Positions 21,849 to 61,204 of a stretch of DNA of 64,000 bases are shown piece after piece. The notes under the pieces were generated by a model that did not search any database, was not told the DNA's origin, and was given only the letters and a program-made list of their open reading frames with translations. A program made the translations under genes and the position numbers. Each line of letters opens with the position of its first letter. The stretch's first letter is position 1. Source of the DNA: Moritella sp. 5 (lineage in GTDB: Bacteria; Pseudomonadota; Gammaproteobacteria; Enterobacterales; Moritellaceae); NCBI RefSeq assembly GCF_018219455.1, contig NZ_CP056122.1, positions 4,806,001-4,870,000 on the forward strand. Direction: 5' to 3'.

Positions 21849-21867
21849 TATTGAAACAGGATTGATA

Positions 21868-23100
21868 ATGACAACAGCAATTACATTACAACAAGGTTTT
21901 ACCTTAAAAAATGGCACGTTTATTAAAAACCGTTTATTTAAGTCAGCAATGAGTGAACAGCTTAGTGATGCCGAACATAACCCATTACCGGGACTTGCTA
22001 CGCTTTATCACACTTGGGCTCTCGGCGGTTTAGGATTATCAATGACCGGTAATCTCATGGTTGATCGCAATGCATTAGGCGAACCAAAGCAAGTCGTGTT
22101 AGATGAACAGAGTGATTTAACTGAGTTTAAACGCTGGGCTCAACAAGGCAGTGTTAACGATACCCAACTGTGGGCACAACTAAATCATCCCGGTAAACAA
22201 ACACCGAATTTTATTAATGCAGAGCCTGTTGCACCGTCGGCGATCGCACTGACAAACGGTTTAGAAAAAGGCTTTAATACTCCGCGCGCACTGACAGAAT
22301 CAGAGATCTTGAATATTATTGGTCAGTTCCAAACCAGTGCCAAATTAGCTAAGCAAGTCGGCTTTACAGGTGTACAAATTCACGGAGCACATGGTTACTT
22401 GGTTAATCAGTTCTTGTCTCCACGTCATAATCAACGTGACGACCAATGGGGTGGCAGCATTGAAAATCGCATGCGCTTTGTATTATCAATCTATCAAGCA
22501 ATACGTGCCGAAGTAGGTGACGCATTCCCAATTGGTATTAAACTGAATTCTGCCGATTTTATGCGCGGTGGTTTTACCGAAGAAGAATCCATGCAAGTCG
22601 TCAAAGCATTATCTGATGCAGGCATCGATCAAATTGAGATCAGTGGTGGTACTTATGAAAGCCCAACGATGACCGGTCACAAAGTGAAGAAGTCAACGTT
22701 AGCGCGTGAAGCTTACTTCCTTGCTTATGCTGAAAAGGTGCGTGCTATTACCGATACACCATTAGTTGTGACTGGTGGTTTTCGTTCAAGTAAAGCTATG
22801 CTTTCTGCACTACAAAGTAACGCAACAGATTTTATTGGACTAGCACGCCCAATGTCGTTAGATACCCAGTTGCCGAATAAACTGATGGCATCTGATGACC
22901 ACAAGATTAGTTTACCGAACTTAACCACAGGTGTTAAAGCCATTGATCGCATCGCGATGTTAAACATTACGTGGTACGAAGCCCAGCTTGCGCGTATTGC
23001 TAAACAGCAGCAGCCAAAAGCCAATTTAGGTACTTGGCCAGTATTTTTCAAAACTCTCTATGGCGCAGGTATCTACGCATTTAGAAAACGCCGTGCTTAA
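21868..23100 (+). CDS. NADH:flavin oxidoreductase (old yellow enzyme family, NemA-like)
   Basis: A 410-residue FMN-dependent TIM-barrel ene-reductase. Visible features are KNRLFKSAMSEQL at the FMN phosphate/isoalloxazine end, QLNHPGKQT, the catalytic pair and Tyr in GVQIHGAHGYLVNQFLSPRHN, NRMRFVL, and the C-terminal FIGLARPM. Members reduce activated alkenes, N-ethylmaleimide or nitro compounds. The start at 21868 has ACAGG upstream; the track-like alternative TTG at 21862 is less good. The TetR operator just upstream implies induction by electrophiles. Confidence 0.92.
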   Translation: MTTAITLQQGFTLKNGTFIKNRLFKSAMSEQLSDAEHNPLPGLATLYHTWALGGLGLSMTGNLMVDRNALGEPKQVVLDEQSDLTEFKRWAQQGSVNDTQLWAQLNHPGKQTPNFINAEPVAPSAIALTNGLEKGFNTPRALTESEILNIIGQFQTSAKLAKQVGFTGVQIHGAHGYLVNQFLSPRHNQRDDQWGGSIENRMRFVLSIYQAIRAEVGDAFPIGIKLNSADFMRGGFTEEESMQVVKALSDAGIDQIEISGGTYESPTMTGHKVKKSTLAREAYFLAYAEKVRAITDTPLVVTGGFRSSKAMLSALQSNATDFIGLARPMSLDTQLPNKLMASDDHKISLPNLTTGVKAIDRIAMLNITWYEAQLARIAKQQQPKANLGTWPVFFKTLYGAGIYAFRKRRA

Positions 23101-23121
23101 GCAGAAAGGACACAATATATA

Positions 23122-23142
23122 CGCCTAGAATATTTCTAGGCG
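23122..23142 (+). terminator. Hairpin after the oxidoreductase gene
   Basis: CGCCTAGAA (23122-23130) and TTCTAGGCG (23134-23142) form a perfect 9-bp stem with a TAT loop. No long T-run follows. Confidence 0.6.
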
Positions 23143-23231
23143 TAGGAAGATAACTTAATTAAAATGAAGCTCTGATAGCTTAATTCAGATCACTAATTTC
23201 ATGCTTCATGACATAAAAAAAATATAAATAT

Positions 23232-23275
23232 AGGAATGAGATTTATTTGCAGTTGGTAACTTGTTAGATTATATA
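23232..23275 (+). promoter_or_regulatory. Sigma-70 promoter overlapped by a Fur-box-like site
   Basis: A -35 TTGCAG (23247-23252) and a -10 TATATA (23270-23275) are separated by 17 bp. AGGAATGAGATTTATTTGC (23232-23250) matches 11 of 19 positions of the classic Fur box (GATAATGATAATCATTATC) and overlaps the -35. The same AATGAGA-type core is found in the three ryhB promoters of this window. This predicts iron repression of the downstream cluster. Confidence 0.55.
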
Positions 23276-23298
23276 AAAGTCAGCAAGTAGGCATAGCT

Positions 23299-23712
23299 AT
23301 GAGTGCAAAAAAAGCATTAAAGAAATTAAAAAAACAAAGCAAGAAGATTGAAAAAAAATCGCTAAAACAACTACATGAATTATCCAAAATCACGACTCAA
23401 GTCGCGGCTAATAACAGTGACTGGCACCACGAGATCAAGGATTTATCGCAAGACGTCATTGCCAGTATGATGTCAGAATTAAAAACACCGTTAGAACCTG
23501 TTATATCTTGGTTTAAAGAAGGTTCAGATAATGTTGAGTACAATAAAGAAGTTATTGCGAGTGGCCAAATACTAACGCTGGCTAAACATCAACAACGCAC
23601 AGCAACTCGATCCGTGCTTAATATTCCGTTGAAATCACCCGCTTGTAAAAAATGTCCAGCACGAGCAAATGGAATATGTAAATGTGCAGCTAAAAAATTT
23701 AAAAACTCATAA
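23299..23712 (+). CDS. Lysine-rich protein with C-terminal Cys cluster, possible ferrosome-cluster member
   Basis: A 137-residue protein. The first 40 residues are very basic and helical (MSAKKALKKLKKQSKKIEKK), the middle is amphipathic, and the C-terminus carries C-x2-C-x7-C-x-C (ACKKCPARANGICKCAAKK), likely to bind a metal or Fe-S centre. It follows a promoter with a Fur-like box and begins a group of metal-handling genes. The 3' end overlaps the next gene (minus strand) by 14 bp. I do not recognise the family; a role on the iron particle or membrane is conjecture. Confidence 0.65.
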   Translation: MSAKKALKKLKKQSKKIEKKSLKQLHELSKITTQVAANNSDWHHEIKDLSQDVIASMMSELKTPLEPVISWFKEGSDNVEYNKEVIASGQILTLAKHQQRTATRSVLNIPLKSPACKKCPARANGICKCAAKKFKNS

Positions 23713-24058
23713 TCATACGACTAACGGAGGGACCAACTAAACGTTTTAATGCTATTGTAGCTAAACCTTTGGTTAGCGTTTTTGCACCATTAACCACCGC
23801 GTTTTCAACAAATGAGGGGTTTTCATCACTTTTAGTCCACTCATGCGTCTCTAAAATCTCTAACAAACTGTCACAATCAAGCTCTTCACGATCAAAATGA
23901 ATTGCTACTGAACCTGCATGATATTTATGCTTAACATTCGAGATCGCATCTATTTGCTGCAATTGTTCAATCAATGCCATAACGGCCTTTGGATTATGGC
24001 GAATATAGTCGGATCTGACGCGTAATCGTTGGGATGTTTTGTGAATATACGTGTTCAT
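23699..24058 (-). CDS. HMA_2-like domain protein (no CxxC)
   Basis: A 119-residue protein with a ferredoxin-like HMA_2 fold: QRLRVRSDYIRHNP as first strand, VMALIEQLQQIDAISNVKHK helix and strand, and GSVAIHFDREELDCDSLLEIL. The canonical metal-binding CxxC is absent, as in the HMA_2 domains of the neighbouring genes at 24192 and 25897. The last 35 residues are hydrophobic (VNGAKTLTKGLATIALKRLV) and may associate with membrane. It is transcribed opposite to the rest of the cluster, sharing a 133-bp divergent region with 24192. Confidence 0.7.
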   Translation of the reverse strand: MNTYIHKTSQRLRVRSDYIRHNPKAVMALIEQLQQIDAISNVKHKYHAGSVAIHFDREELDCDSLLEILETHEWTKSDENPSFVENAVVNGAKTLTKGLATIALKRLVGPSVSRMIMSF

Positions 24059-24191
24059 AACTACTCAAATGCAAGCGATAATGATTATCAATAAGGTAAC
24101 ATCAAAGTTGACCCTGCGCAAAGAAAACTCAATCAAATTCAATTAACAATTGATCACTATTCGCATCCACCCTCTTCTTATATATAATTTT

Positions 24192-24530
24192 ATGATGAAA
24201 GATAAAATCAAAAAAGCTTTAAAAATAAGACGTTGGTTAACGCTAGCGCACCACATCCCAGGACGTATCCGACTTAAATACAAGATGGGTATTATGGCCC
24301 ATTTGGTGACGATAAAAGTCACTGACATTGAGCAAGCGTTAGCTGATATACCTGCGTTTAAAAATTATAAAATAAACAGCGATACAGGTAGCATTCTGAT
24401 TGAATACGATGCAGGCATCATCAAACCAGAATTTATCAACCAGTTGTTTTCAGAATCAGAGGTCGACGTGCAACAAGCTTATTTGAATATTGCTGCAAGT
24501 CTTAAGATGGATGGAGTAAATGATGAGTGA
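24192..24530 (+). CDS. HMA_2-like domain protein (no CxxC)
   Basis: About 112 residues. HHIPGRIRLKYKMGIM opens an HMA_2-type domain and is almost the same as HHLSGRIRFKVPALRQ at the N-terminus of the P-type ATPase two genes on. ILIEYDAGIIKPEFINQLF is the third strand/helix. There is no CxxC, so classical thiol metal binding is unlikely. The start was set at the first ATG (24192); the ribosome site is weak. It overlaps the next gene by 8 bp, so it is translationally coupled. It resembles the HMA-like small proteins of ferrosome clusters. Confidence 0.72.
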   Translation: MMKDKIKKALKIRRWLTLAHHIPGRIRLKYKMGIMAHLVTIKVTDIEQALADIPAFKNYKINSDTGSILIEYDAGIIKPEFINQLFSESEVDVQQAYLNIAASLKMDGVNDE

Positions 24531-25308
24531 TGGTCCTAAATACGGTTCACACGATATCCCTTATACACAGAACACCGAGCAGTCAGACCCTTATGCTACT
24601 AATGGTGGATATTCACCTTACATGATGCCTGTATACGGTTATAACCACCCAGGTATGCACCCAAGTATGCACCCAAGTATGCACCCAAGTATGCACCCAG
24701 GTATGCACCCAGGTATGCACCCAAGTATGCACCCAAGTATGCACCCAGGTATGCAACCAGGTATGCACCCAGGTATGCACCCAAGTATGCACCCAAGTAT
24801 GCACCCAGGTATGCAACCAGGTATGCACCCAGGTATGCATCCAGATTCACACGCTGGTATGCATCCAGGTTCGCACCCAGGTATGCATCCACAGCAAGAA
24901 CCCCCTGCTCAGCAACAAGAAGAAAACAATGCTTTCATTGAACAAGCCCAAGCTATGCTTGAAGGTGTGCTCGGCGAAGAAGTTGGAATGTTTAAAGACT
25001 TATTAGGAAACTTTGGTATGAATGATAAAGAATTTTGGAAAGGCGCTATGGTTGGCGCGGCAGCAGCCCTACTACTAAGCAACGAAAACGTACGTGGCAA
25101 ATTAGTCGATTTAGTTGCTGGTGCTGGTGATATGCTTAAATCAGGTGGCTCAAGTGTTAAAGATACTGCAACGCAAACAGCTGCATCAGTAAAAGATAAT
25201 GTATCAACAAGCGGCGAAATTTTCCGCGATACATATACCGCTGGCAAACAAGGTTTTCAAGAATCTGTTGAGCGTCATAACGTAGAACAACCTAAAACTG
25301 AAAGCTAA
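24523..25308 (+). CDS. Met/His-repeat membrane protein with YtxH-like tail
   Basis: A 261-residue protein. Residues about 42-125 are a tandem array of four-residue units [GS]MHP with a few QP variants, a likely multivalent metal-binding or scaffold region with alternating Met and His. After a Gln-rich linker comes FIEQAQAMLEGVLGEEVGMF, then a single hydrophobic segment GAMVGAAAALLLSNENVRGKL of the YtxH type and an amphipathic Ser/Thr/Lys tail like those of phasin- or apolipoprotein-like helices. ATG 24523 has GGAG six bases upstream. It sits between an HMA_2 gene and another YtxH-like gene. I infer a particle- or membrane-coating role in a metal organelle; no known family covers the repeat. 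Confidence 0.75.
   Translation: MSDGPKYGSHDIPYTQNTEQSDPYATNGGYSPYMMPVYGYNHPGMHPSMHPSMHPSMHPGMHPGMHPSMHPSMHPGMQPGMHPGMHPSMHPSMHPGMQPGMHPGMHPDSHAGMHPGSHPGMHPQQEPPAQQQEENNAFIEQAQAMLEGVLGEEVGMFKDLLGNFGMNDKEFWKGAMVGAAAALLLSNENVRGKLVDLVAGAGDMLKSGGSSVKDTATQTAASVKDNVSTSGEIFRDTYTAGKQGFQESVERHNVEQPKTES
24651..24840. repeat. 12-bp coding tandem repeats ([GS]MHP units)
   Basis: About sixteen 12-bp units of the type GGTATGCACCCA or AAGTATGCACCCA-phase variants, organised in a higher-order 60-bp block present twice (about 24721-24840). Near-identical DNA copies mean recent expansion and easy length change by slippage. Long open frames on the opposite strand here are only by-products of the repeat. Confidence 0.85.
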
Positions 25309-25311
25309 ATT

Positions 25312-25617
25312 ATGAGTAATTCATCAGACAAGTTAAGTGCAAGCCATCGAGCTATGCTCATTGGTGCAATGGCTGGCGGTGGAGCTTCATTAGCTGGCCA
25401 ATGGCGTGATCACCAAAATGGGACATTAGCAACCAATGATGTCGCGATGAATGCTGCAAAATCGGCAATTAAGGCGGGGGCTATCAGTGGAACATCTACC
25501 TATATAGCCGAAAATATGGCAGGTCGGCCAGCATTATCTTTATTCACAATATTAAGTGTAGGCGCAGCTGGCTTATACATGATAGATCAAATGTCGGAAA
25601 GGAAAAAACATGAATAA
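25312..25617 (+). CDS. Small Gly/Ala-rich membrane protein of the metal cluster
   Basis: A 101-residue protein with hydrophobic segments at about 14-27 (MLIGAMAGGGASLAG) and 76-92 (LFTILSVGAAGLYMI) and glycine-rich turns. It is 3 bp from the preceding stop and overlaps the next gene by 8 bp, so it is firmly part of the operon. No known domain is recognised. Confidence 0.65.
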   Translation: MSNSSDKLSASHRAMLIGAMAGGGASLAGQWRDHQNGTLATNDVAMNAAKSAIKAGAISGTSTYIAENMAGRPALSLFTILSVGAAGLYMIDQMSERKKHE

Positions 25618-25900
25618 TAAACCACCTTATTCACCTTATTACGGTTATCCGCAAGGTGAAGTGAAACAGGCTCCTAGTTACAAGCAACAAAACAATAAAA
25701 CCCACTTTGCCATGGGTCTTGCAGCTGGTGCTGCCGTTGCTTATTTATTATCTAATAAAAAATTCCAACAGGGTGTTAGCTCAACAGGCGAAAAGGCATG
25801 GTCAGCTGTGCGTGGTGAAGTCGAAGAGTTAAAAGAACGTCTAGAAGACACACAAGCAGAATTAGATTACTACCGTAACTTAAATAAAGGCGAAAAATGA
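25610..25900 (+). CDS. YtxH-like membrane protein with coiled coil
   Basis: A 96-residue protein. A Pro/Tyr-rich start (PPYSPYYGYPQGE) is followed by one YtxH-type membrane segment AMGLAAGAAVAYLLSNKKF and then an acidic coiled coil VEELKERLEDTQAELDYY. The segment is nearly the same as that of the repeat protein at 24523 (AALLLSNENV versus AYLLSNKKF), so the two are paralogues in this part. It overlaps the ATPase gene by 4 bp (ATGA). Confidence 0.72.
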   Translation: MNNKPPYSPYYGYPQGEVKQAPSYKQQNNKTHFAMGLAAGAAVAYLLSNKKFQQGVSSTGEKAWSAVRGEVEELKERLEDTQAELDYYRNLNKGEK

Positions 25901-27957
25901 TCGACTTGGTCGTTAAGCACCACTTGTCAGGACGTATCCGTTTTAAAGTACCAGCTCTGCGCCAACACTCTGATATTGAAGAGTGGATTAAGCAAAGTTT
26001 ACTCGCAATCCAAGGGATCAGTGATGTACGAATAAATCAAGCGGCTGCATCTATTATCGTGCATTATGATACGCAAATATTGCATGTAGATACTCTCGAA
26101 GCTCGTTTAGCACAACTTGATTTTACTCAAGCAGAACAAACTGAAACAGAGCATCAATATACGCGTGGCGACATTGCCATGAATGTTATTGGTACACTTT
26201 CAACCGCTTTATTACCAAATAAGTGGGGCGCACTAACAACCGCAACACTGGTGGCACCGACCCTCTTTGAAGGCATTAATGAGATCAAAGAGAAGCGTAT
26301 TTCTGTTGAGGTTTTAGATGCTATTGCTGTTGGCTTATCCATCTGGCGTGGGGACTATAAAACAGCGATGGTCACGCAAAGCTTAATCAGCTTAGGCGAG
26401 TATATGGAACAGAAAACCTGCCGAAACAGTGATCAACTACTGGCTGAACTCATGCATCCTCAACAATCTGTCGTGTGGCGTATTGACGAATCAGGAAAAA
26501 TCCAAGTTAACTCAGATGAACTTATTACTGGCGATATAATTGAGCTTGCTCCAGGTAATGCAATTCCCATCGACGGTACTGTAATATCAGGTGCTGCACT
26601 GATTAACCAATCAGCCCTTACTGGTGAAAATGTTCCTGTTAGACGTGAAGAGGATGCCATTGTTTATTCCGGCTCTAGTGTATACGAAGGTACGATTAAA
26701 GTACGTGTCGATAAAATCGGAAGCGAAGCAACCACAGCAAAAATTGCACAGTTAATTTACGATTCGCTAAGCGAAAAAAGTGAAACTCAGCAAGTCACTC
26801 AAGAGATGGCAGATCGCCGCGTTAAAATCACCTTAGGTATCGGGGCTGCAGTGTTTGCTCTAACTCAAGATATTAATCGCGTTGCTTCAGTTTTTCTTGT
26901 CGATTACTCCTGTGCTCTAAAACTAAGTACACCAGTTACATTTAAGTCGATAATGTATCGAGCTGCACAAAATGGTATTTTACTCAAAGGCGGCAGCGCG
27001 ATTGAAAAAATAGTCAAAGTTGATACTTGTGTATTTGATAAGACTGGCACCTTAACGTACGGTGATATGGAAGTGACAGATGTTGTGCCGTTTTGCCAAA
27101 ACAACGATGCCCGTGATTTATTGGCAATTGCAGCGTCTGTAGAAGAGCACAGTAATCACCCATTATCACAGTCCGTGGTCAATGCAGCAAAACACAATAA
27201 ACTCCCACATATTGAACACGGTGAAGTGGAATATGTTATTGCCCATGGCCTTAAAAGTACTCTCAATGGGCACTGTCTTGTTATGGGTAGCCGTCACTTC
27301 CTTGAAGCACATAAAAATGTAGACTTTATTCCATTTGAAGAGCACATTCGTAAACTTGAAGAAATGGGGCGTCATTTAGTTTTCATTTCCCATCAAGGTA
27401 AGCTTATTGGAATGATTGGGTTACGTGATCATTTGCGTGAAGACGTAAAAGATACACTAAATAAGCTACGCCACTTAGGGATTAAAGAGCTAATCATGAT
27501 CTCTGGTGATCGCGCTTATAAGGCACAAACACTTGCAGATGAACTCAAACTTGATCGCGTTTATGCCGAAGCTACACCTAAAAGCAAAGCCAGTATTATT
27601 GAGCAACTCAAACAAGCTGGTAAAACAGTGATGTTTATTGGTGATGGCGTCAATGATGCGCCCGCATTAACTGCTGCCGATGTTGGTATTGCTATGTCTA
27701 AAGGCACAGAACTAGCAAGGCAAGCCGCTGATGTAGTGTTATTAAAAGATACGCTTTATGGTGTCGCTGAAACACGCCAATTGGCACAAATTGCAATGTC
27801 GATGATCAACTCAAACATTAAAGCCGCTGAATATGTTAACAGCGGTATTATGTTAGCAGCAGCGCTCGGAATGCTAAGCCCCGCGATGAGTGCACTACTT
27901 CATAACGGTACCACCCTCGCGATCCTTGCTCGTTCCGCGGCATTAAAGAATGGCTAG
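25897..27957 (+). CDS. P1B-type metal ATPase with S-C-A motif (FezB-like)
   Basis: A 686-residue P-type ATPase. An N-terminal HMA_2 domain without CxxC (HHLSGRIRFK) comes first, then membrane helices, the actuator loop with TGENVP, the phosphorylated D381 in DKTGTLTYGD, the P1B-specific HP of SNHPLSQS and the hinge GDGVNDAPAL (D583, D587). The membrane metal site that reads CPC or SPC in copper, zinc and cobalt pumps is here DYSCALKLSTP (S338-C339-A340). This is unlike those classes and fits the unusual ATPases of ferrosome-forming clusters (FezB, class P1B-6), reported to load iron into vesicles. That assignment is inferred from gene company and motif, not from a search. Last gene of a coupled operon. 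Confidence 0.85.
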   Translation: MIDLVVKHHLSGRIRFKVPALRQHSDIEEWIKQSLLAIQGISDVRINQAAASIIVHYDTQILHVDTLEARLAQLDFTQAEQTETEHQYTRGDIAMNVIGTLSTALLPNKWGALTTATLVAPTLFEGINEIKEKRISVEVLDAIAVGLSIWRGDYKTAMVTQSLISLGEYMEQKTCRNSDQLLAELMHPQQSVVWRIDESGKIQVNSDELITGDIIELAPGNAIPIDGTVISGAALINQSALTGENVPVRREEDAIVYSGSSVYEGTIKVRVDKIGSEATTAKIAQLIYDSLSEKSETQQVTQEMADRRVKITLGIGAAVFALTQDINRVASVFLVDYSCALKLSTPVTFKSIMYRAAQNGILLKGGSAIEKIVKVDTCVFDKTGTLTYGDMEVTDVVPFCQNNDARDLLAIAASVEEHSNHPLSQSVVNAAKHNKLPHIEHGEVEYVIAHGLKSTLNGHCLVMGSRHFLEAHKNVDFIPFEEHIRKLEEMGRHLVFISHQGKLIGMIGLRDHLREDVKDTLNKLRHLGIKELIMISGDRAYKAQTLADELKLDRVYAEATPKSKASIIEQLKQAGKTVMFIGDGVNDAPALTAADVGIAMSKGTELARQAADVVLLKDTLYGVAETRQLAQIAMSMINSNIKAAEYVNSGIMLAAALGMLSPAMSALLHNGTTLAILARSAALKNG

Positions 27958-27976
27958 CACTTAATTACTATCAAAA

Positions 27977-28025
27977 AATAAATACCACATAAAATATATC
28001 CAATATTTATTATGTGGTATTTATT
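27977..28025. terminator. 16-bp perfect hairpin after the ATPase operon
   Basis: Arms 27977-27992 (AATAAATACCACATAA) and 28010-28025 (exact reverse complement) with a 17-base AT loop. It is AT-rich and lacks a clean T-run, so it may be an mRNA-end hairpin or an operator for the glutaredoxin gene that begins 57 bp later. Confidence 0.55.
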
Positions 28026-28082
28026 CGAACGAATATGCTAGCATTACACTCCATTATTAGCCCTCTTAACAGGACCATATTC

Positions 28083-28442
28083 ATGAAAGTTATTCGCTGG
28101 CTACTAGGCCGTCTAATTTTAACGCTTAATTTCATCTTCACGCCAAAAAGCATGAAACGCCCAGCTGATGCACAAGCAAAAGTTGATAGCGAGATCAATA
28201 ACATGTCACTTTACCAATTTGAAGCTTGCCCATTTTGTGTAAAAGTACGTCGTAGCATGAAGCGTTTAAACTTAGATATCACCGTACGCGATGCTAAAAA
28301 CGATGCGACATTTGGTAACGAGCTAGAGCAACAAGGCGGTCGCCGTAAAGTACCTTGCCTACGTATTGAAGAAAATGGTCAAGTGCAATGGATGTATGAA
28401 TCAAATGACATCATTGCGCATTTAGAAAAGAAATTTGCTTAA
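28083..28442 (+). CDS. Membrane-anchored glutaredoxin family protein
   Basis: A 119-residue protein. An N-terminal hydrophobic segment (VIRWLLGRLILTLNFIF) precedes a glutaredoxin domain with the active-site CPFC (in FEACPFCVKVRR), the cis-Pro in KVPCLRI and the C-terminal helix SNDIIAHLEK. Such proteins use glutathione to reduce disulfides or bind Fe-S clusters. The ATG at 28083 has AGGA upstream; a longer frame from 28014 runs through the hairpin and is rejected. An intrinsic terminator follows. Confidence 0.88.
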   Translation: MKVIRWLLGRLILTLNFIFTPKSMKRPADAQAKVDSEINNMSLYQFEACPFCVKVRRSMKRLNLDITVRDAKNDATFGNELEQQGGRRKVPCLRIEENGQVQWMYESNDIIAHLEKKFA

Positions 28443-34826: not shown

Positions 34827-36899
34827 ATGCGACTAGATAAGATCCCGGTTATCGAATTAAAAGGTGTTGGCGCCAAAATGGCCGAGAAATTAGCAAAGCT
34901 GAACTTAGTCACAGTTCAGGACCTGCTATTTCATCTGCCAAGCCGATATCAGGATCGTACGACCATCTATCCGATTCAAGAGCTTTTACCCGGTCTACAC
35001 GGTACTATCGAAGGTGAGATCGTCAGTTGCGATGTCACGTTTGGTAAACGTAAAATAATGTCTTGTAAAGTCAACGACGGCACAGGCATCATCACCTTAT
35101 TATTTTTCCATTTTAATGCCGGACAAAAAAACAGTTTCAGTGTCGGAAAAACAATTACCGCATTTGGCGAGTTTCGCCGAGGCCGCTTTGGTTATGAAAT
35201 TGTCCATCCGGAATATAAACTTGCGCATGCTACCAGCTCAGAAATGAGTGAAGAAACGCTAACACCTGTATATCCTTCAACAGATGGGTTAAAGCAGCTT
35301 ACCTTACGAAATCTAACAGACCAAGCACTGCAACACTTAACACAAACGACATTACAAGAGCTATTACCTGAAGGTTTATACACAGGACAAATCGAGTTAA
35401 ATCATGCAATCCAACTATTGCATCGACCAACACCCGATGTCTCACTTGAGCTGCTAGAACAAGGTCAACACCCTGCGCAGCAACGCCTTATAATTGAAGA
35501 GCTACTGGCGCAAAATATCAGCATGCTGCAATTACGCAAAAAAATGCAGCAGCATCCCGCAATCAAATTGCAGTCCAGCAAAACAATTACTGATAAATTT
35601 TTGGCACAATTACCTTTTACGCCAACCAATGCCCAACAACGTGTTGTTGCTGAAATCCAACAGGACCTCCAGAAAGCCTACCCTATGATGCGTTTGGTTC
35701 AAGGTGACGTTGGGTCAGGCAAAACCCTCGTTGCAGCCTTAGCGGCCCTTCAGGCTATCGGTAATGGCTATCAGGTGGCATTGATGGCTCCAACTGAAAT
35801 ATTAGCCGAACAACATGCACTTAATTTCAAAGGCTGGTTCAATCAGCTGGGTATCAAAGTCGGCTGGTTATCTGGTAAACAAAAAGGTAAAGCGCGAGAA
35901 GCGGAGCTAGAATCGATTGCTAGTGGCGAAACGCAAATGATTATCGGCACCCATGCTATTTTTCAAGATGCAGTAAAATTCTTAAATTTAACCTTAGTCA
36001 TTATTGATGAGCAACATCGCTTTGGTGTAGAGCAACGTCTTGCCCTACGTGAAAAAGGCGCGGTCAGTGGTTTATACCCGCACCAATTATTTATGACAGC
36101 AACCCCTATCCCACGCACCTTGGCCATGACCGCTTATGCAGATTTAAATACCTCGGTCATTGACGAATTACCACCAGGGCGAACCCCTATTACCACGGTG
36201 GTGATGCCCGATAGTAAACGCGGAAAGATCATCGAACGGGTTGAATTAGCCGTTAAAAATGAAGGCCGTCAAGTCTATTGGGTATGTACTCTTATTGAAG
36301 AATCAGAGGTGTTAGAGGCCCAAGCCGCTGAAGATACCGCTAATGATTTACAAAAAATGTTGCCCGATTTACGAATTGGTTTAGTACATGGCAGAATGAA
36401 AGCCATTGAAAAACAATACGTAATGGAAGCTTTTAAGAACAAGCAGTTGGATTTATTAGTCGCAACCACTGTTATTGAAGTCGGTGTTGATGTGCCAAAT
36501 GCAAGTTTGATGATTATCGAAAATCCAGAGCGTTTGGGTCTGGCACAATTACATCAGCTACGTGGTCGAGTCGGCCGTGGGAAAGTGGCCAGCCACTGCG
36601 TATTACTTTATCACGCACCACTTTCCGATACCGGCAGTAAGCGATTATCGGTATTACGGGAAACCACAGACGGATTCAAAATTGCACAGCGAGACCTCGA
36701 GATCCGTGGCCCCGGCGAGATGCTCGGCAGTAAACAAACCGGTATTGCAGACTTAAAAGTGGCAGACTTAGTCCGCGACCAACAACTTATTCCTCTAGTC
36801 CAAAATATTGCTCGCCACTTACTGCAACAGCATCCCGATAATGCCCATGCGATCACCCTACGTTGGATGGCAGACAAGGACATTTATTCCAACGCTTAA
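34827..36899 (+). CDS. recG: ATP-dependent DNA helicase RecG
   Basis: A 690-residue superfamily 2 helicase that regresses stalled forks and moves Holliday junctions. An N-terminal wedge/OB domain comes first (IPVIELKGVGAKMAEKLAKL), then helicase motifs GDVGSGKTLVAA (I), IDEQHRFGVEQR (II, DEQH), TATPIPRTLA (III), and VIEVGVDVPNAS and QLRGRVGRG (V, VI). The ATG at 34827 gives the normal start MRLDKIPV; an upstream frame from 34794 overlaps no ribosome site. Confidence 0.97.
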   Translation: MRLDKIPVIELKGVGAKMAEKLAKLNLVTVQDLLFHLPSRYQDRTTIYPIQELLPGLHGTIEGEIVSCDVTFGKRKIMSCKVNDGTGIITLLFFHFNAGQKNSFSVGKTITAFGEFRRGRFGYEIVHPEYKLAHATSSEMSEETLTPVYPSTDGLKQLTLRNLTDQALQHLTQTTLQELLPEGLYTGQIELNHAIQLLHRPTPDVSLELLEQGQHPAQQRLIIEELLAQNISMLQLRKKMQQHPAIKLQSSKTITDKFLAQLPFTPTNAQQRVVAEIQQDLQKAYPMMRLVQGDVGSGKTLVAALAALQAIGNGYQVALMAPTEILAEQHALNFKGWFNQLGIKVGWLSGKQKGKAREAELESIASGETQMIIGTHAIFQDAVKFLNLTLVIIDEQHRFGVEQRLALREKGAVSGLYPHQLFMTATPIPRTLAMTAYADLNTSVIDELPPGRTPITTVVMPDSKRGKIIERVELAVKNEGRQVYWVCTLIEESEVLEAQAAEDTANDLQKMLPDLRIGLVHGRMKAIEKQYVMEAFKNKQLDLLVATTVIEVGVDVPNASLMIIENPERLGLAQLHQLRGRVGRGKVASHCVLLYHAPLSDTGSKRLSVLRETTDGFKIAQRDLEIRGPGEMLGSKQTGIADLKVADLVRDQQLIPLVQNIARHLLQQHPDNAHAITLRWMADKDIYSNA

Positions 36900-56836: not shown

Positions 56837-56933
56837 AAAAAAAACGCCTCGTCAAAAAGTGACGTGGCGATGAATAATAAATTCAATTTGAAACAAAAGG
56901 TTTGAAATATAATTTCGAACCTCCATACCCTAC
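56837..56933 (-). ncRNA. spf: Spot 42 small RNA
   Basis: On the minus strand the transcript begins GTAGGGTATGGAGGT at 56933, matching the enterobacterial Spot 42 start GTAGGGTACAGAGGT. It keeps ATTTCA-ACCTTTT and TTCA further on, and ends in the terminator CGCCACGTCA-CTTTT-TGACGAGGCG with eight T (to 56837). It is about 97 nt, against 109 in E. coli, and the middle is diverged and AU-rich. Position between polA and engB is the classical one. Spot 42 is an Hfq-dependent regulator of carbon metabolism (galK, gltA and others), repressed by CRP-cAMP. Confidence 0.93.
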
Positions 56934-56939
56934 CCCGCT

Positions 56940-57012
56940 AATATACGCCAAACTTGTTTCAACCGAAAGTAAAATACGTTATTTAGTTACATTTTTTGTG
57001 ACAAAGCGCACT
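56940..57012 (-). promoter_or_regulatory. Spot 42 promoter and possible CRP site
   Basis: A -10 TATATT (56940-56945) lies six bases before the RNA start. The -35 is poor. TGTGA-CAAAGC-GCACT (56997-57012 read on plus) is a half-conserved CRP site centred near -71. CRP control is known for E. coli spf but the position here differs. Confidence 0.5.
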
Positions 57013-60306: not shown

Positions 60307-60479
60307 AAAAAGCCGGTATCAATCAAACTTCTCGATAATCGAGGGATAAGAAGTTTGATCTACCGGCCCGAAAAAAAAAATTCGGTTTACCCTGCAAGGA
60401 GTAATGGATTAAAATTAACCCGGAAGCAATGTGAGCAATGTCTTGTCCTACTGAAACAAATAATGATTTCCTGAAGAAC
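60307..60479 (-). ncRNA. ryhB: RyhB small RNA, copy C (polA-proximal)
   Basis: The transcript is predicted from G at 60479 (GTTCTTCAGG, compare GCGATCAGGAAG in E. coli). It contains the signature GACATTGCTCACATTGCTTCC (60422-60442), the pairing core of E. coli RyhB. It ends in a long hairpin (arms 60311-60332 and 60349-60367) followed by T5. About 173 nt, longer than the enteric 90 nt but like Vibrio RyhB. RyhB with Hfq silences iron-using proteins when iron is short. This copy differs most: longer A-run at 60371-60380, weak -10 and A-U instead of G-C at one stem pair. Confidence 0.93.
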
Positions 60480-60671: not shown

Positions 60672-60840
60672 AAAAAGCCGGTATCAATCAGACTTCTCGA
60701 TAATCGAGGGATAAGAAGTCTGATCTACCGGCCCGAAAAAATTCGGTTTACCCTGCAAGGAGTAATGGATTAAAATTAACCCGGAAGCAATGTGAGCAAT
60801 GTCTTGTCCTACCGAAACAAATACGAATTTCCTGAAGAAC
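60672..60840 (-). ncRNA. ryhB: RyhB small RNA, copy B (middle)
   Basis: The start is predicted at 60840 (GTTCTTCAGGAAATTCG). The RyhB core GACATTGCTCACATTGCTTCC is at 60783-60803 on the minus strand. The terminator stem has G60691-C60720 where copy C has A60326-U60355, a compensatory change that proves selection for the hairpin. T5 ends the transcript near 60672. About 169 nt. Confidence 0.94.
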
Positions 60841-61034: not shown

Positions 61035-61204
61035 AAAAAAGCCGGTATCAATCAGACTTCTCGATAATCGAGGGATAAGAAGTCTGATCTACCGGCCCGA
61101 AAAAATTCGGTTTACCCTGCAAGGAGTAATGGATTAAAATTAACCCGGAAGCAATGTGAGCAATGTCTTGTCCTACCGAAACAAATACTGATTTCCTGAA
61201 GAAC
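61035..61204 (-). ncRNA. ryhB: RyhB small RNA, copy A (promoter-distal from polA)
   Basis: The start is predicted at 61204 (GTTCTTCAGG). Core GACATTGCTCACATTGCTTCC at 61147-61167 on the minus strand. The terminator hairpin (G61055-C61084 pair as in copy B) is followed by T6 at 61035-61040. About 170 nt. It is very similar to copy B, showing that these two duplicated most recently or are kept alike by gene conversion. Confidence 0.94.

Follow-up and report, generated by a model that had tools for sequence, protein, structure and literature searches.

The window analysed here is the whole stretch of 64,000 nucleotides taken from contig NZ_CP056122.1, part of the 5.0-Mb genome of Moritella sp. 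5. According to its list of open reading frames (ORFs) it contains seven genes, A to G, all within 23299-27957, which resemble the fez gene clusters of ferrosomes, a recently found class of iron organelles of which few members have been studied. Genes A, C, D, E, F, and G are located on the + strand, and B lies on the - strand, overlapping the last bases of A by 14 and oriented divergently from C; from C through G neighboring genes overlap or almost touch, and these five are read as one putative operon (Table 1). An earlier first-pass annotation of this DNA had spoken of six genes: all the genes it named are present, although it listed seven, the number also found here, with B on the opposite strand. 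Its two HMA_2 proteins without CxxC were recovered as B and C, which exceed the Pfam PF19991 cut-off (36.3 and 39.3 bits vs 30) and both lack this motif. G carries an N-terminal HMA_2 domain of its own (Pfam, E-value 8.1e-16). The PF12732 match of F is weak (E-value 8.1e-4, under the cut-off), and since D is related to F, these two labels were assigned partly by position.

Table 1. Features of the seven-gene cassette and of the ryhB-like genes, in window positions
Feature	Positions	Strand	Evidence
Whole cassette	23122..28077		in 3/11 Moritella genomes; site empty in the 6 fez-less ones read
Fur-box-like site, gene A promoter	23234..23255		top window site for both de novo motifs from other genera
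Gene A, Lys-rich, 137 aa, C-terminal C-x2-C-x7-C-x-C	23299..23712	+	ORF; in 43/81 sources
Gene B, small HMA_2 protein without CxxC	23699..24058	-	PF19991, E-value 6.9e-9
Second Fur-box-like site, in the B/C intergenic region	24073..24094		15.7 and 17.2 bits
Gene C, small HMA_2 protein without CxxC; ATG at 24192, possible TTG at 24150	24192..24530	+	PF19991, E-value 8.2e-10
Gene D, Met/His/Pro-rich N-terminal repeat and conserved FWKGA membrane core, YtxH-like	24520..25308	+	
12-bp tandem repeat encoding [GS]MHP array in D	24646..24891	+	20.5 copies
Gene E, MamC-related small membrane protein	25312..25617	+	NCBIfam MamC, E-value 4.3e-8; hhalign, E-value 1.3e-16
Gene F, YtxH-like small membrane protein	25610..25900	+	weak PF12732 match; family in 81/81 sources
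Gene G, P1B-type ATPase, N-terminal HMA_2, DYSCA in TM4, HNGTT in TM6, FezB-like	25897..27957	+	
ryhB-like genes (three)	60372-60450, 60736-60811, 61100-61175	-	Rfam E-values 0.0034, 0.04, 0.04; all under gathering score

We consider it quite probable that this locus is a ferrosome (fez-type) cassette, for which we infer iron as the substrate, the formation of an organelle, and the roles of A, D, E, and F. Grant et al. are said to have described, in 2022, a six-gene fez operon in Rhodopseudomonas palustris and Shewanella putrefaciens. R. palustris builds ferrosomes from six fez genes, RPA2333-2338 in CGA009 (PMC12016538; this and the other papers given by PMC number are cited from excerpts), and expression of its fez genes follows that of iron genes (PMC6879726). 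The Moritella cassette is similar to this six-gene operon in gene number and kinds, as matched through an Azospirillum plasmid and, for RPA2333-2338, by description only: six of its seven genes are of the expected kinds, and it differs in the divergent orientation of B, the added gene A, and the Met/His/Pro-rich head of D. The Azospirillum plasmid bears six co-directional genes (HMA2, cation transporter, two hypothetical proteins, YtxH, and ATPase), its E being matched by profile at 8.1e-5 only. In Clostridioides difficile, FezA and FezB are Fur-repressed and required for ferrosomes, so that fezAB is alike in Fur control and in the FezB-type ATPase (PMC12574912).

By scanning named genome contigs for relatives and keeping the best 80 of 112, a set of 81 sources was obtained, the window included. 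Profile searches detected HMA_2 genes, D/F-type genes, and the ATPase in each of the 81, E in 80, and A in 43. The order D-E-F-G is kept in 79 sources, the exceptions being L083, where a contig end cuts the locus, and L086, where D was not found; divergent HMA_2 genes stand side by side in 58. Among the relatives kept, the closest named locus is that of Moritella sp. DT_65 (94% ATPase identity), and Shewanella species bear the same cluster. Iron genes adjoin some of the clusters, namely FeoA and TonB receptors in Cereibacter and ChaN and TonB receptors on one Arcobacter plasmid. The ATPase is sparsely distributed. At an E-value of 1e-120 or better it is present in 5 of 59 related genomes (own genome counted) and in 2 of the 274 genomes from the class; a threshold of 1e-100 gave 8 genomes among 398 from the phylum. 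Within Moritella, 3 of 11 genomes have it. Of the eight fez-less Moritella genomes, six were read for an empty site (G003 and G004 were left out, the nearest copy of the downstream gene being located elsewhere); in all six, homology ends at 23099-23121 and resumes at 28078-28079, and thus A-G have been gained or lost as one block of approximately 5 kb. The G+C content is 0.416 for the cassette vs 0.397 for the window. With this locus, a psychrophilic marine genus has what appears to be a complete cassette under Fur control, a unit of gain or loss. In one further genome (G044, locus L138), E comes after the ATPase gene and not, as elsewhere, before it.

Transmembrane segment 4 (TM4) of G reads DYSCA, in line with the S-C-A motif named in the first-pass annotation, and TM6 reads HNGTT; DYSCA together with HNGTT or HNGST occurs in 80 of 82 full-length relatives, the other two having DYSCS and HNGAT, respectively (the L068 ATPase, split by a frameshift, was left out of this count). 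For comparison we used CopA, ZntA, and CcoI of the same genome and the ATPases of pMOL30 and pSymA, which show CPC in the own-genome pumps, SPC with HEGST in pMOL30, and TPCP in pSymA. None of the P1B-1, P1B-2, P1B-4, and P1B-5 motifs (CPC, SPC, or TPCP in TM4; MSxSS, D-x-G-A, or H-E-G-x-T in TM6) was found in G. S-C-A is the signature of class P1B-6, to which we take FezB to belong, and G is a putative ATPase of the FezB kind by motif, architecture, and class. The substrate of P1B-6 is listed as Fe(II) in a review table (PMC7558416), and P1B-4 pumps require SPC and the His of HEGGT (PMC10800456); the TM6 His of G may thus recall Co/Fe-type pumps, not Zn pumps with Asp at this place. In a tree of 45 rows (27 of the 83 cluster ATPases and 18 others, with one non-P1B row excluded; several of the branches to references are long, and the tree was rooted for drawing only), G falls in a 31-row clade (100/98) with the Azospirillum, Arcobacter, Cereibacter, and other cluster ATPases, outside a single supported clade (100/97) of the Cu, Zn, P1B-4, and P1B-5 references. 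A related motif (DYSCG/HNSTT) occurs in a Fusobacterium cluster that contains HMA-like small genes; the Fusobacterium and Priestia ATPases lie outside the clade of G, and no D, E, or F was found beside them. An operon for the efflux of copper or zinc, including accessory proteins, could account for the score of G on the NCBIfam cadmium model TIGR01512 (360.6, above the cut-off of 313.5). However, G remains under the cut-off of the copper model (330.4 vs 397), has no CPC, TM6 Asp, or MSxSS, does not group with Cu or Zn exporters (a check that the first-pass annotation had proposed), and is accompanied by a Fur motif in a genome that already owns CPC-type ATPases (L002-L004), all of which makes such an operon very improbable.

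De novo motif searches in other genera, with Moritella left out, gave aAaTgAAAATnAtTCTCATTT before A (41 sequences; log-likelihood ratio 239 vs 69 and 71 for shuffles) and AATGAgAATnATTtncATTta between B and C (56 sequences; 435 vs 75 and 81), where two mononucleotide shuffles per set were run with fewer random starts. By the known consensus, we take both motifs to be the Fur box. The site before A ranks first in the window under both motifs (22.4 and 20.4 bits), compared with maxima of 17.8 and 16.8 bits in 20 mononucleotide-shuffled windows, and the B/C site, which the first-pass annotation had missed, exceeds the shuffled maximum for the second motif only. The next ranks under the second motif (61208, 60846, 24074, and 60485) are the three ryhB promoters and the B/C site; those under the first are 60845, 24073, and 61209, the third ryhB site scoring 11.2 bits, which is at background level. 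Fur control of the cassette is supported by these predicted sites, and together with the tree and motifs of the ATPase they bear out the earlier proposal of a putative ferrosome-type cluster under a Fur-like promoter. A sigma-70-like -35/-10 pair at 24054-24082 overlaps the B/C site; such pairs are no commoner than in shuffles.

The protein encoded at 25312, whose relationship to MamC had gone unnoticed in the first-pass annotation, links the cassette to magnetosomes. The NCBIfam MamC model (NF038051) matches 44 of 46 E proteins (best 1.3e-10) and gives 33.4 bits for the E of the window, the curated cut-off of 100 not being reached. In the opposite direction, an E profile recovers all 11 MamCs that exceed this cut-off in 11 genomes of a 48-genome class, taken for Magnetococcia (E-values 7.3e-18 to 6.5e-12 in this small set). 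Profile-profile alignment by hhalign assigns a probability of 98.8 over 81 columns, covering both membrane segments and the loop, vs a probability of 1.7 and an E-value of 0.029 for a reversed MamC alignment. As judged from these profiles, E and MamC are homologous and have a common scaffold. The two columns that we take to be Glu66 and Asp70 in AMB-1 numbering are acidic in all 11 MamCs; in 38 fez E proteins the first is acidic in 17, the second in 10, and both in 3, the E of the window having D and N. Asp70 and Glu66 of MamC are thought to act as a magnetite template (PMC6584501). With the acidic pair in just 3 of 38 E proteins, the scaffold would be common and the crystal template mostly not, which fits an amorphous iron store. 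The locus might also be what remains of a set of magnetosome genes, E then being a true MamC, a reading to which the homology would point; the score of E far below the MamC cut-off, the mostly missing acidic pair, and the lack of a magnetosome-family match in the other eight (Pfam) or six (NCBIfam) proteins of the region (E itself has a weak PepSY_MTB match, E-value 0.27) make this extremely unlikely. In open-licence papers, with no claim for all print, we found nothing linking MamC to ferrosomes or reporting MamC relatives outside magnetotactic bacteria, and among solved structures the best matches for E and A (E-values 0.2 and 1) were not usable. A DUF2202 protein (E-value 1.2e-85) is located next to mamC in a magnetotactic-type genome (L142, 164-1318), and an Arcobacter cluster has a weak DUF2202/rubrerythrin match (L095, 5336-6016; E-value 0.0024, under the cut-off), a possible second link between magnetosome and ferrosome types. 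The relationship between a ferrosome component and a magnetosome protein would make a common origin of bacterial iron organelles directly testable.

Gene A has no Pfam family, only single scattered matches being found for the 33 members searched, and its tail C-x2-C-x7-C-x-C is invariant in all 33 aligned sequences. Among the 59 genomes, the five that have G are exactly those with full-length A, and likewise those with full-length E (three of the five belong to one genus and are thus not independent); in the phylum, full-length A is present in 3 of 398 genomes, all of which have G. Weak A matches (limited to the tail or with an E-value of 1e-5) were observed in three genomes: two of these lack G, and in the third, which has it, the match is a second copy. 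Because A lies inside the cassette, has its own Fur site, and co-occurs at full length with G, we count it as a candidate added component of the marine gammaproteobacterial branch, an accessory protein not recognised before. Lys-rich proteins with an A-like cysteine tail were also noted at L104, L105, and L106 (genomes G049 and G032, which have no ATPase, and the second copy in G038), and the Azospirillum F-type protein (L094, 6555-6962) starts with a KKALKKLKK stretch resembling the start of A. We see roughly even chances that ferrosomes and magnetosomes have inherited a membrane component from a common ancestor, the fez E proteins and MamC forming one family, that these two iron organelles share a toolkit in which template acids were gained or lost with crystalline vs amorphous iron, and that the marine gammaproteobacterial branch also gained the Fur-controlled four-cysteine protein A, which travels with the cassette.

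The Met/His-repeat protein had been regarded as a new component, which is ruled out: it is the conserved gene D, which precedes E in 79 of the 81 sources and has a conserved membrane core (FWKGA...), and only its Met/His/Pro-rich head varies by lineage. A appears to be a better candidate for an added component. The FWKGA motif allowed 74 of the 81 D proteins to be cut; in these, heads on the Vibrio-Shewanella-enterobacterial side (n=54) contain on average 8.6% His and 11.1% Met, vs 3.7% and 5.1% on the Chromatiales side (n=20), and His plus Met reaches at least 12% in 52 of 54 and 4 of 20, respectively. M[HQ]P repeats occur in 13 other loci, several of them from Photobacterium, and the array of another Moritella locus (L012) has five copies only. 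The Moritella MHP array is an expansion of the variable, lineage-specific head of D.

If the locus is a ferrosome cassette, iron scarcity would release Fur from the site upstream of A and from the B/C site, and the genes would be expressed. The small membrane proteins, with their Gly/Ala-rich membrane segments, may make up or coat a vesicle surrounding G, and G would pump ferrous iron into this compartment, which fills once iron returns. The iron might be held or organised by D, through its Met/His/Pro-rich head, and by E, through its MamC-like loop. A would be cytoplasmic, and its four cysteines might make it a metal-responsive partner. In mycobacteria, PacL1 scaffolds foci of CtpC, and PacL proteins scaffold a related ATPase type (PMC9374683), which offers a model for F and D. 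PacL1-CtpC is alike in having small membrane proteins beside an HMA_2-type ATPase and differs in that its metal is zinc, not iron, and in the CPC-type motif of a Rhodococcus relative. We know of no E or HMA_2 partners of PacL1-CtpC. The same scaffolding could also serve an iron efflux platform in the cytoplasmic membrane, in which small membrane proteins cluster an Fe(II)-exporting ATPase and no organelle is formed, and Rhodococcus has the same layout, with a small glycine-rich membrane protein (DUF1490) adjoining an HMA_2-type ATPase. Nevertheless, predicted Fur-dependent expression at iron scarcity has the wrong sign for detoxification, the architecture is nearer to the six-gene fez operons, and E is related to an organelle protein; we therefore regard such a platform as unlikely.

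Several observations weigh against a ferrosome cassette. The assignment of G to FezB is by motif, architecture, and class, and the Cereibacter ATPase reads DYACP. The D profile missed the third Azospirillum gene and was also silent in Arcobacter, and E was undetected in five more distant clusters (L131-L134 and L136), which also speaks against a universal role of E. No DUF4405 (FezC) match was found by Pfam among the nine proteins of the region; FezC, a DUF4405-like cytochrome, is part of some fez clusters, those of the Desulfovibrio type, and to our knowledge is not a requirement in the six-gene type. When matches to a crude 19-letter Fur consensus were counted, the best match had 14 letters or more in 20 of the 58 B/C regions and in 16 of the 43 A regions, barely above shuffles (14 was attained by one or more of 30 shuffles in 18 B/C and 17 A regions), and the 23234 site was missed (11/19 letters); this count was discarded as too weak, and the de novo motif search was used instead. 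As a separate observation, clusters L131-L134, with FezB-type ATPases and no detectable E, come from the same class as the true MamCs.

Outside the cassette, an old-yellow-enzyme-type gene (21862-23100) lies upstream and a glutaredoxin-like gene (28014-28442) downstream. The three ryhB copies noted in the first-pass annotation were found as ryhB-like genes arranged in tandem approximately 364 bp apart, each with an upstream Fur-like site. Other Rfam matches below the gathering score, also on the - strand, are Ysr141 at 35638-35892 (E-value 3.6e-22) and Spot_42 at 56838-56943 (E-value 8e-4).

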